This document shows, in pieces, positions 25,312-29,935 of a stretch of 64,000 nt of DNA. The position numbers and the translations under genes were made by a program. The notes beneath the pieces are model-generated. The model did no database searches. It was not told the DNA's origin and worked only from the letters and a program-made list of their open reading frames with translations. Within the stretch, counting starts at the first letter, position 1. The number at the start of each line of letters is the position of its first letter. Source of the stretch: Sphingomicrobium sp. (GTDB lineage Bacteria > Pseudomonadota > Alphaproteobacteria > Sphingomonadales > Sphingomonadaceae); the NCBI GenBank assembly GCA_036563485.1, contig DATCMI010000001.1, forward strand, positions 124,001-188,000. Direction: 5' to 3'.

Positions 25312-27600
25312 GTGTCGACGAAGAACCAGACCCAGAGTGAAGCCAAGCCGTGGAAGCTGCTTCTGTGGACGGCGGTGGCCGGCCTGGTGTTCGGCCTGAT
25401 CGGCTTCGGCGAAATTGCCGAGGACTGGCTCCGCGTTGCCCGCAACAAGCTGCACACGCACAGCGCCAGCGGCGACATCGTCTTCGTCCAGATCGACGAC
25501 AAGACGCTGCGGGAAGTCGGCCGCTGGCCCTGGCCGCGCCGCGACATGGCGAAGCTGACCGACAAGCTGACCGAAGCCGGCGCCAAGCGCATCTTCTACG
25601 ACATCACCTTCTACGACCGCACCAATCCGGTGGACGATGCGATCCTCGCCGACGCGCTCAAGCGTTCGGGCCGGGTCCATCTCGCGGTTCGGACGCGCTT
25701 CGGCCCCAATGGCGGACCTACCGCATCCGGCTCAACGCCGACCGAGTTCGCACAGCATGCGACGCTCGGGAACATCAGTGCGAAGTATAATTATCAGAAC
25801 GCGCTATGGCACCTGCCCTATGCCGTTCAGGAAGGTCAGAGGACTTTCGTGACCTTTGCGGTGCAGCTCGCAAACCGGAGCGGCGCGCCGGGCGCCTCGT
25901 TCATGCCCGACTATTCGATCGACCCGAAATCCATCCCGGTCGCGAAGGCGGAGGATTTCCTAAGCGGCAAGTACAGGCCAGACGCCTTCGCAGGCAAAGA
26001 CCTCTTCGTCGGCTGGAACACAGAAACGCTTGGAGATCAGCTGTTCATCCCCGGCACCGGGAAGACCGCGGGTGCGTACGTCCACATCATCGGCGGCGAG
26101 ACTCTTAAAGCTGGGACGCCGATCTACCTCGGGTGGGTGCCGCTCTTTGTTCTAACGCTGGCGCTTTCGGCCTTCGCCTTGGCCCGCCGCAGCCCGAAAG
26201 TCCGAATTGCTACCCTGGGAACAGGAGCGATTTTCCTTCTCTTCGTCCCCGCAGCACTCGAGGCGCGCCTGATCACGTTCGACATCACGCCTGCTCTCTT
26301 TGTGTTGATCGTCATTGGGACTGCGCTCGCATGGCGCCGCTATCGCGCGCAGGGTCTCGTCAACACCGTAACGAACCTGCCGAACCTCAACGCTCTGCGG
26401 CTCAACCGCGAGGGGGGACAGCGCCCCCTCGTTGCCGCGCGTGTGCTGAATTACGAAGAGATCGTCGCCAGCCTCCCGACGGATGCCGAACGCCAGCTGG
26501 TCGATCAGATCGTCGCGCGGCTGAATGTCGGATCGCCCCAGCGGGTCCTTTATCAAGGCGACGGCGGCATCTTTGCCTGGTTCGACGAGACACGAGAGCC
26601 GTTCGGCAACCAGCTCGAAGCGCTTCATGCGATGTTCCGCACGCCCGCCCGGATCGCCGACCGGTCGATCGACCTGTCGATCGCGTTCGGCGCGGAGATC
26701 GGCAGCGGCCGCTCGCTCGCCAACCGGCTTGCCAGTGCGCTCGTCGCTGCTGACGAGGCGGCTCATCAGGGCCTCAAGTGGAAGTATCACGATCCCGAGA
26801 CGCTCCAGGACGCAAGCTGGAAACTGTCGATCCTCAGCCAGCTCGACGAAGCGATCGATCGAGGCGAAGTCTGGGTCGCCTTCCAGCCGAAGGTGGACGT
26901 GGCGACGCGGCAGGTCATCGGCGCCGAAGCGCTCGCGCGGTGGACCCACCCGGAGAAAGGCCCCATCGCCGCGTCCGAGTTCGTCGCGGCGGCGGAGCAG
27001 CACGACCGCATCGCCAAGCTTACGGACTTCGTCCTTGAGAAGGCAGTTGCGGCGGCTGCCCAGATCAACAAGCGCGGCGCCGACTTCCACGTGGCGGTCA
27101 ATCTGTCCGCGCGCCTTCTCGCCGACAAAGGCCTGACGCTTCGGCTGGCGGCGATGCTGGCCCGCCACGGGCTCGCCCCGCACCTGCTCACGCTGGAGCT
27201 GACCGAAACCGCGCCGCTTACCGACAGCGGCGGAGGGCTCGAGATGATGGGCCGCCTCCGCGAACTCGGGGTGTCGATTGCCATCGACGATTACGGCACG
27301 GGCCAGTCGACACTCGAATATCTCAAGAAGATCCCGGCGGCCGAGATCAAGATCGACCAGAGCTTCGTCAAAGGCATTGTCGAAAATCGAAGCGACCGTT
27401 TGATGGTCCAGTCCACCATCAGCCTCGCCCACTCGCTCGGCCGCAAGGTCGTTGCCGAAGGCGTGGAGCAGCGCGAGATCCTCGACGTGCTCACCGAGCT
27501 CGGTTGCGACGTCGCCCAGGGCTTCGCGATCGGCCGCCCGATGAGCTTCGACTCGCTGGTGAAACGCGTCGGTTCCGGCCGCCGCCGCAGCGCAGCCTAA
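25312..27600 (+). CDS. CHASE2-EAL membrane phosphodiesterase with degenerate GGDEF
   Basis: The 762-residue protein has an N-terminal membrane helix, a periplasmic CHASE2 sensor (VFVQIDDKTLREVGRWPWPR onward, about residues 55-270), three membrane helices (about 275-350), a degenerate GGDEF domain whose signature is QGDGG, and a C-terminal EAL domain. EAL residues are intact: EALARW, VNLSARL, LELTETA, AIDDYGTG, EIKIDQSFV and VAEGVE. It is therefore probably an active c-di-GMP phosphodiesterase controlled by a periplasmic signal, with no diguanylate cyclase activity. It starts with GTG. Confidence 0.88.
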   Translation: MSTKNQTQSEAKPWKLLLWTAVAGLVFGLIGFGEIAEDWLRVARNKLHTHSASGDIVFVQIDDKTLREVGRWPWPRRDMAKLTDKLTEAGAKRIFYDITFYDRTNPVDDAILADALKRSGRVHLAVRTRFGPNGGPTASGSTPTEFAQHATLGNISAKYNYQNALWHLPYAVQEGQRTFVTFAVQLANRSGAPGASFMPDYSIDPKSIPVAKAEDFLSGKYRPDAFAGKDLFVGWNTETLGDQLFIPGTGKTAGAYVHIIGGETLKAGTPIYLGWVPLFVLTLALSAFALARRSPKVRIATLGTGAIFLLFVPAALEARLITFDITPALFVLIVIGTALAWRRYRAQGLVNTVTNLPNLNALRLNREGGQRPLVAARVLNYEEIVASLPTDAERQLVDQIVARLNVGSPQRVLYQGDGGIFAWFDETREPFGNQLEALHAMFRTPARIADRSIDLSIAFGAEIGSGRSLANRLASALVAADEAAHQGLKWKYHDPETLQDASWKLSILSQLDEAIDRGEVWVAFQPKVDVATRQVIGAEALARWTHPEKGPIAASEFVAAAEQHDRIAKLTDFVLEKAVAAAAQINKRGADFHVAVNLSARLLADKGLTLRLAAMLARHGLAPHLLTLELTETAPLTDSGGGLEMMGRLRELGVSIAIDDYGTGQSTLEYLKKIPAAEIKIDQSFVKGIVENRSDRLMVQSTISLAHSLGRKVVAEGVEQREILDVLTELGCDVAQGFAIGRPMSFDSLVKRVGSGRRRSAA

Positions 27601-27627
27601 CACTTCCAAGCACAGCCATAATCCAGC

Positions 27628-27654
27628 CGCTCGCTTGAAGAAGCGAGCGCTTTC
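27628..27654 (+). terminator. Probable terminator after the CHASE2-EAL gene
   Basis: A perfect 9-bp stem (CGCTCGCTT with AAGCGAGCG) around a GAAG loop, 28 bases after the stop codon, followed by CTTTC. The T tract is short, so it may be a weak terminator. Confidence 0.55.
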
Positions 27655-27698
27655 ACTTGCCAATTTCGCGCGTCCTCACGCGAAACATGGTGAATCGT

Positions 27699-27727
27699 TT
27701 GTCAACCATATCGATTAAGGTTAATAT
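27699..27727 (+). promoter_or_regulatory. Near-consensus promoter of the 27-residue peptide gene
   Basis: TTGTCA (27699-27704) and TAATAT (27722-27727) are separated by exactly 17 bases. Transcription would begin near 27734, giving a leader of about 36 bases before the ATG at 27770. This is the best-looking sigma-70-type promoter I noticed in the window. Confidence 0.65.
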
Positions 27728-27769
27728 GCCCCCAACTGCCGGATCGCAGTCAAACAAAGGGGCTGAGAC

Positions 27770-27853
27770 ATGAAGAAGGTCAGCAAAGGTCGTGGTTTCT
27801 GGACGTGGCTCATGGGCGGCGGCTGGACCGGAGCCGGCGGCGGCGGCGCTTAA
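27770..27853 (+). CDS. 27-residue Trp/Gly-rich peptide, new micro-gene
   Basis: The ATG at 27770 is preceded by AAGGGG with a 7-base spacer. The peptide has a cationic start (MKKVSKGRG), a hydrophobic centre with Trp at positions 11, 13 and 19 (FWTWLMGGGW) and a Gly-rich end (GAGGGGA). The unit is complete: promoter at 27699-27727, ribosome-binding site, short CDS and a strong terminator at 27876-27909. I do not recognise it. It could be a small membrane-active or regulatory peptide, or the transcript could act as an RNA. Three Trp codons recall leader peptides, but no trp gene follows. Confidence 0.6.
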   Translation: MKKVSKGRGFWTWLMGGGWTGAGGGGA

Positions 27854-27875
27854 TTCCGCCACTTCAATGATTTAG

Positions 27876-27909
27876 AAAGCGCTCGCCTCACGGCGGGCGC
27901 TTTTCTTTT
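27876..27909 (+). terminator. Strong rho-independent terminator
   Basis: A stem GCGCTCGCC (27879-27887) with GGCGGGCGC (27892-27900), one G-T pair, around a TCAC loop, extended by AAA/TTT, then TTTTCTTTT. It ends the 27-residue peptide transcript 25 bases after the stop codon. Confidence 0.85.
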
Positions 27910-27950
27910 GTGCGGTGGAAGCGGCAGCCGAAGGGCGCTAGTCGGCACTG

Positions 27951-28370
27951 ATGCTGAGGCAAGAAACGGCGAGAATCGCGATTCGCGCGAGTCGCCCCGG
28001 ACTCCACGAATTCACCGACCGAGCGCGCGATTTCGTCAACCATAGCGGCATCAGCGAGGGTCTATTGACCCTTTTTTGCCGCCACACGTCGGCGTCGCTG
28101 GTGATCCAGGAAAATGCCGCGCCCGCGGCGCGCCGCGATCTCGAAGCTTATTTCGCCCGCCTGGCGCCGGAGAGCGCCATCTATGACCATGACGAAGAGG
28201 GTCCGGACGACATGCCGGCGCATCTGCGGACGGCGCTGACGGCGACGCAGCTGTCGGTGCCGGTGATCGGCGGCGAACTTGCGCTCGGCACCTGGCAGGG
28301 CATCTTCCTGTTCGAGCATCGCCGCGCGACGCCCGAGCGCGAGATCGTCCTTCACCTGGTCGGCGAATGA
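27951..28370 (+). CDS. YjbQ/UPF0047 family protein
   Basis: The 139-residue protein has the family motifs LTLFCRHTSASLVIQENA near residues 42-59 and VIGGELALGTWQGIFLFEHR near residues 104-123. Members have been linked to low-level thiamine phosphate synthase activity, and the physiological role is unclear. Its stop overlaps the ATG of the following YbaK gene (ATGA). Confidence 0.88.
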   Translation: MLRQETARIAIRASRPGLHEFTDRARDFVNHSGISEGLLTLFCRHTSASLVIQENAAPAARRDLEAYFARLAPESAIYDHDEEGPDDMPAHLRTALTATQLSVPVIGGELALGTWQGIFLFEHRRATPEREIVLHLVGE

Positions 28371-28849
28371 GCCTTCAGTCCGTCCAGGCCTGGCTGGCGG
28401 CCGAGGCGCCGGACCTGCGCCTGATCGAGACCCAGGAAAGCACGGCGACGGTCGAGAGTGCTGCGGCGGCGCTCGGCGTCGAGCCCGGCCGTATTGCCAA
28501 GACCCTCGCAGTGCGCGCCGGCGACCTCCTCTTTCTCCTCTGCACGGGGGGAGACGTCCGCCTCGACAACCGCAAGTGCAAGGATGTGCTGGGCGCGCGC
28601 CCGCGCATGCTTGGGCCCGACGAAACGCTCGAGCTTACCGGCCATCCCGTCGGCGGCGTCTGCCCGTTCGGTCTCGCTACGCCCCTGCCCGTCTATCTCG
28701 ACGTGTCGCTGCAGGCGTTCGACATCGTCTATCCGGCGGGCGGGTCGCTGAACACCTCGGTCGAAGTGTCGACGGAGCGGCTGTTCGACCTCGTCGCCGA
28801 ACGCTGGGTGGACCTATGCAAGCTCCCCGAGGAACCGGCTGGGACTTAG
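28367..28849 (+). CDS. YbaK/EbsC-type aminoacyl-tRNA deacylase
   Basis: The 160-residue protein matches the YbaK/ProX-like editing family: TQESTATVESAAAALGV, RIAKTLAVRAGDLLFLL (conserved Lys near residue 45), and GHPVGGVCPFGL near residues 90-101. These trans-editing enzymes hydrolyse mischarged tRNAs such as Cys- or Ala-tRNA(Pro). It is coupled to yjbQ. Its 3' end overlaps the convergent oxidase gene by 36 bases. Confidence 0.85.
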   Translation: MSLQSVQAWLAAEAPDLRLIETQESTATVESAAAALGVEPGRIAKTLAVRAGDLLFLLCTGGDVRLDNRKCKDVLGARPRMLGPDETLELTGHPVGGVCPFGLATPLPVYLDVSLQAFDIVYPAGGSLNTSVEVSTERLFDLVAERWVDLCKLPEEPAGT

Positions 28850-29935
28850 CGAGGCGGCATCGACGTCCGCCACGGGCCACGGTGTTCCTACGACCAGCGA
28901 TTCGACCATTGCCGCCATCGCCGGGCTGGTCTGCAGCCCAAACCCGCCCTGCCCCGCCAGCCAAAAGAAGCCCTCGGCATCGGGCGCGAAGCCGACTGCG
29001 GGATGACGGTCCGGCGTGAAGCTCCTTAGCCCCGCCCATCGGCTGTGGATGTGCCGCACCTCGACAGTCGTGCGCTCCTCCATGCGGTGAGCAGCGAGCG
29101 CGACCTCATATTCGTCGGGCTGCGCGTCGCACGGGTCGCTCGGCACTTCGTCCATTGGCGAGGCGAACAGCCGGCGGCTCTCCGGCGCGAAGTAGAGTTC
29201 GTCGCCGACGGTCTTGGTGAAGGGCAGCGCGTCGACATCTATGCCGGCGGGAGCATCGAAGGTGATGATTGTCCGGCGCTTCGGTACGAGACCGATTGGC
29301 CGCACGCCCGCAAGCATCGCCACAGCATCGGCCCAGGCGCCCGCGGCGTTGACCAGAACCGGCGCGCTGAACCGCTCGGCCGCCTCGCTCGTGACGCTCC
29401 ACGCGCCACCGTTCCGCTTGATCCCCGCCACACGAACCCCGGTGCGCAGCTCGCCCCCGAGCCTGCGCAGCCGCCGCAAATTGCCCTGAAGCAGGGCGTG
29501 CGGATCGAGCCGGACGCCGTTGCGGTCGGCAATGCCGCTGACCGCATCCGCTCTCAGGATCGGGCACAAAGCGTGCACGCCGGTCGCATCCAGCCGCTCC
29601 AGCGACGCGAAAGCCGAAAGGTCCGCTTCCACCGCGTCGAGGGCCGCAATCTCGTGCTCGCGCGCATGGACCAGCACCGGCATGCGCCGCCCCAGCGGCA
29701 CATCGGTAAAATCGTCCGGCGGATCGTCGAAGAACGGACGGCTGGCGAGCGTCAGGGCGCGGACCAGCCGATCACCGAGCGCGTAATGGAGCATGGTCGC
29801 GCTTCGGCCAGACGCGTGGAAGCCCACCTGCTCCTCCGCCTCGAGCACCGTGACGCGGCCATGCTTCGCCAGCGCCGCGGCCGCGGAGAGCCCCGCGATG
29901 CCGCCGCCGATGACGAGAATGTCGGAGGAGTTCAC
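28814..29935 (-). CDS. FAD-dependent amino-acid oxidase/dehydrogenase (DadA-like)
   Basis: The 373-residue flavoprotein has the dinucleotide-binding ILVIGGGIAGLSAAAALA at residues 5-22, the FAD-binding VNAAGAWADAVA, and the C-terminal HPAVGFAPDAEGFFWLAGQGGFGLQ segment of the DAO family (glycine oxidase or D-amino-acid dehydrogenase type). Substrate is unknown. Its GTG start overlaps the pntA1 stop by four bases, so it is co-transcribed with pntA1. Confidence 0.85.
   Translation of the reverse strand: MNSSDILVIGGGIAGLSAAAALAKHGRVTVLEAEEQVGFHASGRSATMLHYALGDRLVRALTLASRPFFDDPPDDFTDVPLGRRMPVLVHAREHEIAALDAVEADLSAFASLERLDATGVHALCPILRADAVSGIADRNGVRLDPHALLQGNLRRLRRLGGELRTGVRVAGIKRNGGAWSVTSEAAERFSAPVLVNAAGAWADAVAMLAGVRPIGLVPKRRTIITFDAPAGIDVDALPFTKTVGDELYFAPESRRLFASPMDEVPSDPCDAQPDEYEVALAAHRMEERTTVEVRHIHSRWAGLRSFTPDRHPAVGFAPDAEGFFWLAGQGGFGLQTSPAMAAMVESLVVGTPWPVADVDAASLSPSRFLGELA

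Follow-up and report, generated by a model that had tools for sequence, protein, structure and literature searches.

Very short tryptophan peptide genes of the Sphingomonadaceae are paired with one group of CHASE2-EAL enzyme genes

Is the 27-codon open reading frame (ORF) that follows an enzyme gene in a Sphingomicrobium sp. sequence a gene in its own right, is its product a peptide or an RNA, and with what might that product act? The stretch of DNA analysed here (the window) is 64,000 nucleotides in length. A sequence-only reading had proposed that a promoter, a ribosome-binding site, the ORF and a terminator form a complete transcription unit for a Trp/Gly peptide that gene finders would not call, had recognised no family, and had left open whether peptide or RNA carries the function. 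All four elements are present at the positions listed in Table 1, and the proposal of a complete uncalled unit is supported, as related units are conserved across the Sphingomonadaceae. Three features had been missed: the enzyme gene directly upstream, a CtrA-type box across the -35 element, and a structured leader.

Table 1. Features of the micropeptide locus (window coordinates)
Feature	Coordinates	Strand	Basis or remark
Partner gene: CHASE2 / degenerate GGDEF / EAL, 762 codons, GTG start	25312..27600	+	Pfam CHASE2 6e-23, EAL 1.3e-69
Terminator-like hairpin 3' of partner gene, 9 pairs, 6 G-C	27628..27649	+	Terminator scan, window only
Putative CtrA-type box, degenerate copy TGAA-N7-TCAACCAT, overlapping -35	27691..27709	+	6/8 core bases; family box counts
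Promoter: -35 TTGTCA (27699-27704), -10 TAATAT (27722-27727), 17-base spacer	27699..27727	+	Promoter scan
Leader hairpin GCCCC (27728-27732) / GGGGC (27759-27763), inner stem ACTGC/GCAGT	27728..27763	+	Predicted fold
Ribosome-binding site AAAGGGG	27756..27762	+	Sequence; relatives keep purine-rich site
Micropeptide ORF, 27 codons (ATG at 27770) and TAA (27851-27853)	27770..27853	+	Relatives in tblastn; pN/pS 0.29 among relatives' within-genus pairs
Intrinsic terminator, stem 27875-27904 (13 pairs, 8 of them G-C) and adjoining T-rich tail	27875..27910	+	Terminator scan; family terminator counts
YjbQ (secondary thiamine-phosphate synthase family)	27951-28370		Next gene 3' of unit in window
YbaK/ProX-type tRNA-editing protein gene	28367-28849		Few-base overlap with YjbQ gene

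Taken alone, the window promoter is barely above chance. It had been called near-consensus with 17-base spacing, which holds as to position; it matches the consensus at 9 of 12 bases. It is the sole promoter-like site within 26500-29000 (1 versus 0.3, sd 0.6, in shuffles), an interval that also contains five terminator-like sites where 1.7 (sd 1.5) are expected. What sets the unit above chance is that related short ORFs recur family-wide, together with their start codon, ribosome-binding site, promoter box and terminator: when conservation was checked among relatives, the coding sequence was found to be kept, and the promoter box and terminator usually are too. A further terminator-like hairpin lies directly after the enzyme gene, ahead of the peptide promoter; possibly it keeps the enzyme and peptide transcripts separate, an idea that rests on the window only.

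The ORF encodes the peptide MKKVSKGRGFWTWLMGGGWTGAGGGGA, of which the window genome (2.33 Mb, one contig) has a single copy. No Pfam, NCBIfam or PHROGs family matches the window peptide at E <= 1, and a match of one relative's peptide to PHROGs (E 0.063) is weak and was taken as chance. Comparison of the peptide alignment with solved structures gave nothing better than chance. A CTGAGA word 5' of the start evoked a TPP riboswitch, which was rejected because Rfam has no match there; at the gathering threshold, Rfam identifies one tRNA in the window and nothing else.

The relatives of the window peptide are Trp peptides of 11-41 residues, found in Sphingomonadaceae, with the core [F/I]-W-D-W-L-x-G-G. 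In tblastn searches of 397 genomes of the family, the window peptide gave matches at E <= 1 in 106 genomes and the peptide of a relative gave matches at E <= 0.5 in 111; many weak matches in both searches are due to chance. The strong matches are to short ORFs that open at a start codon preceded by a purine-rich ribosome-binding site and that encode the core [RK]G[FI]WDWLxGG. Two genomes of a single genus that lack a tblastn match (G304 and G373) carry a diverged version of the peptide at the same location. We compiled 95 units, 86 of them found by script beside the enzyme gene and nine entered manually: a diverged unit, two inverted ones, three lying away from the enzyme, two more from genus g2, and one behind an insertion. 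Their peptides have a median length of 24 residues, and 89 of the sequences are distinct. The shortest are of 11-12 residues (e.g. MSIWRWLLQLI, MKKWPWAGWNW and MWDWLFGGGYWA). A WxW motif is present in 79 of the 95 peptides, two or three Trp residues in 84, and a positive net charge in 79. Runs devoid of K, R, D, E, H, N and Q stay below 16 residues in 93 of the 95. No export signal was recognisable on inspection by eye.

Codon changes within genera follow the pattern expected of a coding sequence: pS is 0.32 and pN is 0.093 (pN/pS 0.29) over same-genus pairs that are non-identical, equal in length and at least 60% identical, and pN/pS exceeds 1 in 2 of the 16 within-genus groups. The sequence data thus give good support to the conclusion that the peptide ORF is a protein-coding gene under purifying selection, its translation being inferred. 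On the question of peptide or RNA, the evidence favours the peptide, as the frame and the Trp core are kept in 28 genus groups.

A profile search with a 25-peptide alignment against 385 genomes across the class gave only weak matches outside the Sphingomonadaceae; the best of these (8.8e-4) sits in a 104-codon frame and is not claimed as a relative. No relative of the peptide was found in the viral contigs and plasmid collections searched. A scan of genome contigs matched two named sphingomonads, one metagenome-assembled genome (MAG) and one Candidatus Onthomonas, the last of which was taken as chance, the enzyme being absent there. The same verdict was reached for locus L109 (genome G378), which had been fetched on a weak peptide match and also lacks the enzyme.

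The neighbourhood of the peptide gene is constant on one side only. Together with the window, forty stretches (none longer than 12 kb) selected by peptide match gave 38 placed units; three stretches had no unit by the first rule. Of the 38 units, 36 are immediately preceded by the same CHASE2/EAL gene, approximately 770 codons long and in the same orientation; the two exceptions are L102, with the enzyme at another location, and L129, with the enzyme gene facing the unit. Of the 86 script-found units, 61 have a gap of 60-119 bases between the enzyme stop codon and the peptide ATG. The downstream gene varies between most genera and is often on the opposite strand (genera g2 and g87 share one). 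YjbQ is directly downstream in the window only, among the 38 units compared.

A further 80 enzyme loci were fetched, mostly from the top of the match list downward and not at random, and a FastTree phylogeny of 118 enzymes was built (L112, a duplicate of L155, was dropped, and L102 and L109 were left out for want of the enzyme). A branch with 99% support splits these enzymes into 94 rows from 28 genera and 24 paralogues. The peptide is found alongside 89 of the 94 enzymes on one side of this branch and none of the 24 on the other, with presence set by hand for L145, L146, L129 and L151. A fixed rule, calling for an ATG ORF of 10-45 codons with a ribosome-binding site and a Trp motif, is met downstream of 87 of the 94 peptide-side enzymes (including a chance match at L140), compared with 0/24 on the other side, 1/271 for other genes, 3/94 on the opposite strand, and a mean of 1.6/94 in shuffles. 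The window and the loci chosen by peptide match make up 38 of the 94, so a fairer count is that over the 56 fetched for the enzyme alone: 50 meet the rule, one (L140) by chance, leaving 49. Of the other six, two carry a unit that is diverged (L146) or inverted (L151), and four (L136, L143, L171 and L174) fail. By hand count, all 42 genomes with a peptide match of E < 1e-3 in either tblastn search have the enzyme at E <= 1e-80, compared with 171 of 397 genomes overall, and eleven genomes hold both kinds of enzyme, one with and one without the peptide. That the peptide gene is paired with one side of the enzyme tree only is therefore well supported by the sequences.

The five peptide-side enzymes without the peptide alongside are instructive. 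In G336, G157 and G357 (loci L140, L143 and L174), another gene lies behind the enzyme and the peptide unit is elsewhere in the genome, so that both are kept; the separated unit of G336 retains the downstream genes usual for its genus. In G122 (L171, L223), the peptide is intact approximately 1.1 kb further on, past an intervening stretch that we take to be an insertion element, recognised by eye. In G346 the enzyme is present and the peptide was not found, in a weak search without a positive control. A rival reading is that the peptide acts in the cell independently of the enzyme, for example at the membrane or in the cell cycle under CtrA, and that the two genes adjoin only through shared regulation or old synteny. 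In favour of this reading, the unit has its own promoter box and terminator and is intact when inverted or apart from the enzyme. Against it, the peptide accompanies 89 of 94 members of the partner group and none of the 24 paralogues, every genome with a clear peptide match has the enzyme, and the downstream genes turn over while the enzyme stays. We regard a separate role as possible but unlikely.

From its domains and motifs, the partner is inferred to be a membrane-bound c-di-GMP phosphodiesterase, although there are no activity data. On the peptide side, 91 of 92 rows have the E-A-L-x-R motif and all 92 have DD[FY]G, while the GGDEF signature is present in none of these rows (the window reads QGDGGIF) and in 0/24 of the other side. 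The two sides have similar mean conservation in EAL (0.61 on the peptide side, 0.63 on the other) and differ in CHASE2 (0.43 versus 0.60), the peptide side being the larger and deeper group. Pfam CHASE2 scores are likewise 17-80 bits in six peptide-side rows versus 126-144 in three rows of the other side. The paralogues without the peptide (e.g. L175, L178 and L207) constitute a second CHASE2-EAL group with a better conserved CHASE2 domain. In a search across the class, only genomes of the family (5/385) have the enzyme at E <= 1e-80; six weaker rows from outside the family match from residue 375 or later and so do not include the CHASE2 region. A structure prediction made from three rows was poor (mean pLDDT 53.6) and was considered for its secondary structure only. 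In Sphingomonas rhizophila KACC 19189 (L062, 3653-5877) and in a MAG (L060, 279-2417), the CHASE2-EAL gene lies in two frames with an intact peptide ORF behind it; either a broken gene or a sequencing error is possible.

The promoters of the peptide units share a CtrA-type box. The full CtrA site, its TTAACCAT variant and its position near -35 in activated promoters have been described (PMC6180460), and the units resemble such promoters in having TTAA-N7-TTAA or TTAACCAT near -35. In 68 of the 95 units, the 120 bases 5' of the ATG contain a TTAA-N7-TTAA box that matches at 7 or 8 of its 8 bases, compared with 7.7% of shuffles, 2/24 regions downstream of the other enzymes, and 5/89 regions further downstream. 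The 87 units that best match an extended pattern yield, when each genus is given one vote, the consensus GTTAA-N4-TTGTTAACCAT, with TTG acting as the -35; its core is partly fixed by the way these units were chosen. Of 60 units with TTG in the box, only 32 have a -10-like hexamer at the right distance. The window differs from the described promoters in that its copy is degenerate: its 6/8 match is close to what shuffles give on average (5.5) and would not suffice by itself. It is the family of units that meets the CtrA site criterion, and CtrA binding here is inferred only, without binding data. The window genome encodes a CtrA orthologue (residues 1-201 aligned at 79% identity, E 5.5e-106). 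The same genome shows no enrichment of exact TTAA-N7-TTAAC sites (2 versus 4 for the backwards control); one of them (G000:C1:417986, L224) lies approximately 2.3 kb before the ctrA orthologue at 420251, maybe by chance. A box before the enzyme gene itself was considered and rejected as a shared feature (at least 7/8 in 13/87 on the peptide side and 1/23 on the other). In short-gap genera (e.g. g15 and g48), co-transcription of peptide and enzyme is conceivable.

The leader of the window unit is predicted to fold with a z-score of -1.6 and a ribosome-binding site pairing of 0.60. Across the units, the 50 bases 5' of the ATG have a mean fold z of -2.05 versus -0.36 for 71 control starts, and the ribosome-binding site is predicted to pair with the 5' arm (>0.5) in 69% of units versus 45% of controls. 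The stem sequence varies from genus to genus. When ribosome-binding sites were swapped among 28 genus representatives, pairing weakened, and only 2 of 5000 permutations were as strong. Covariation by genus means is moderate (Wilcoxon p 0.0096), with a unit's own pairing above the foreign mean in 63 of 95. Several genera (g13, g45, g81, g89 and g90) have little leader pairing. The 5' arm starts at or right after the -10 element, and in some genomes part of it may be untranscribed. At the other end, a terminator-like element follows 91 of the 95 units versus 60 of 295 other genes, many of which are perhaps inside operons. The sequence-only reading had taken the strength of the signals to indicate an abundant transcript; there are no expression data, and the box and leader hint at regulated and not constant expression.

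Three rival explanations bear on this structure. The first is that the RNA carries the function and the ORF is incidental, for which the compact unit with its structured leader and terminator could be cited. We consider this very unlikely: the frame, start, ribosome-binding site and Trp core are kept as the DNA changes, pN/pS is 0.29, and the leader stem sequences differ between genera. The second is that the ORF is a leader peptide attenuating the next gene, the terminator being the attenuator, as the succession of Trp codons and terminator might suggest. This too is very unlikely, as the gene that follows varies across most genera and frequently lies on the opposite strand, there is no conserved downstream biosynthetic gene, and the next gene in the window is YjbQ and not a trp gene. 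The third is that the peptide is a type I toxin or a Trp-rich antimicrobial peptide that the leader keeps untranslated. Its cationic, Trp-rich character (net positive in 79/95) and the frequent pairing of the ribosome-binding site speak for this reading, but most members are too short and polar to span a membrane (lengths descend to 11 residues), the gene is kept with one enzyme group across 28 genera, and no relative was found in the plasmid and viral collections searched. A toxin is also very unlikely.

Where on the enzyme might the peptide act? Peptide divergence was compared with that of each enzyme domain, given overall enzyme divergence (88 rows). The partial r is 0.23 for the degenerate GGDEF domain (0/200 permutations as high), 0.013 for CHASE2, -0.04 for the membrane part and -0.14 for EAL. 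The best 40-residue stretch, residues 441-480 of the degenerate GGDEF domain, gives 0.32, 0.33 and 0.26 by three measures of peptide distance; none of 200 label permutations was as high, and it was the best stretch in 40 of 50 one-per-genus draws. Mock peptides (pieces of the enzyme) compared with distant stretches reached a maximum of 0.27 in 544 values and never 0.32. Finer scanning places the signal at about 381-410 and 431-460. A weaker signal is seen at residues 41-80, at the start of CHASE2 (0.14, 0.24 and 0.21). Of eleven residues that the peptide side retains and the other side seldom has, seven are in the degenerate GGDEF domain (351, 419, 421, 462, 472, 475 and 494). The effect is modest, the scan was exploratory, and label permutation ignores relatedness. 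Co-divergence may thus point to the cytoplasmic degenerate GGDEF domain, an inference from sequence that is not proof and has no binding data behind it.

These results also bear on a fourth rival, in which the peptide would leave the cell and act as a pheromone, with the periplasmic CHASE2 domain of the adjoining enzyme as its receptor. A variable short peptide gene does adjoin a sensor protein gene, CHASE2 (and not EAL) is less conserved on the peptide side, and there is the weak co-divergence at residues 41-80. Against this, co-divergence with CHASE2 as a whole is nil and the signal is in the degenerate GGDEF domain; no export signal was seen, and no transporter gene recurs in the neighbour clusters, which were not individually annotated. 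We regard a pheromone as unlikely.

The explanation that we prefer, with a little better than even confidence, is that the gene encodes a micropeptide, timed by CtrA, whose intracellular binding to the degenerate GGDEF domain sets the activity of the phosphodiesterase encoded upstream. The binding site, the control by CtrA and the effect are all inferred, with no expression, binding or activity data. In this model, CtrA bound to a TTAA-N7-TTAACCAT-type box over the -35 would time transcription (inferred from the conserved box and the CtrA orthologue), and the short mRNA would stop at its own terminator. The leader would often pair with the ribosome-binding site and so gate translation, as inferred from folding and covariation, though not in every genus. 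The peptide would stay in the cell, because it has no recognisable export signal and many members are too short to span the membrane. As inferred from co-divergence, its Trp core would dock on the degenerate GGDEF domain, where the cyclase signature is missing, and docking may raise or lower hydrolysis of c-di-GMP by the EAL domain, the direction being undetermined. A bolder version, to which we would give rather less than even credence, is that ultra-short Trp micropeptides (down to 11 residues) act family-wide inside the cell as ligands or subunits of a degenerate GGDEF domain with which they co-evolve and which has turned from nucleotide enzyme into peptide receptor, placing c-di-GMP breakdown under CtrA (cell-cycle) timing and leader-gated translation.

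Parts of this proposal have precedents. MgrB, which acts on PhoQ, and SafA are small-protein regulators of bacterial signalling enzymes. The present family resembles them in that a very small protein is proposed to act on one membrane signalling enzyme; it differs in not being homologous by the searches made, in its length of 11-41 residues, mostly without a membrane-spanning stretch, and in its proposed target, the degenerate GGDEF domain of a phosphodiesterase. Rgg-SHP and ComR-ComS are systems in which peptide pheromones are encoded next to their receptors. The likeness here is a short, fast-diverging Trp peptide gene with its own promoter adjoining the gene of a presumed receptor, but in the present family no export signal is seen, co-divergence is at a cytoplasmic domain, and the partner is a Gram-negative membrane phosphodiesterase and not a cytoplasmic regulator. 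CHASE2-EAL c-di-GMP phosphodiesterases have been surveyed in five orders (PMC9756655). The partner has both domains and intact EAL motifs; it differs in being found at E <= 1e-80 in this family only, with a micropeptide on one side of its tree. Passages of that survey mention no such peptide, and searches of open-access literature yielded no description of the peptide-enzyme pair (subscription papers and preprints lay outside them).

Small-protein regulators of signalling enzymes are thus already known; a degenerate GGDEF domain serving as a peptide receptor would, if true, be new in kind. Degenerate GGDEF domains are common, most of them with no known input. The peptides constitute a very short conserved bacterial protein family, and the paralogues without them offer natural negative controls, in eleven cases within the same genome. 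If our preferred explanation is correct, a gene-encoded peptide ligand would be a new kind of input for degenerate GGDEF domains, and in sphingomonads a single tiny gene, usually overlooked by annotation, would tie CtrA to the breakdown of c-di-GMP.
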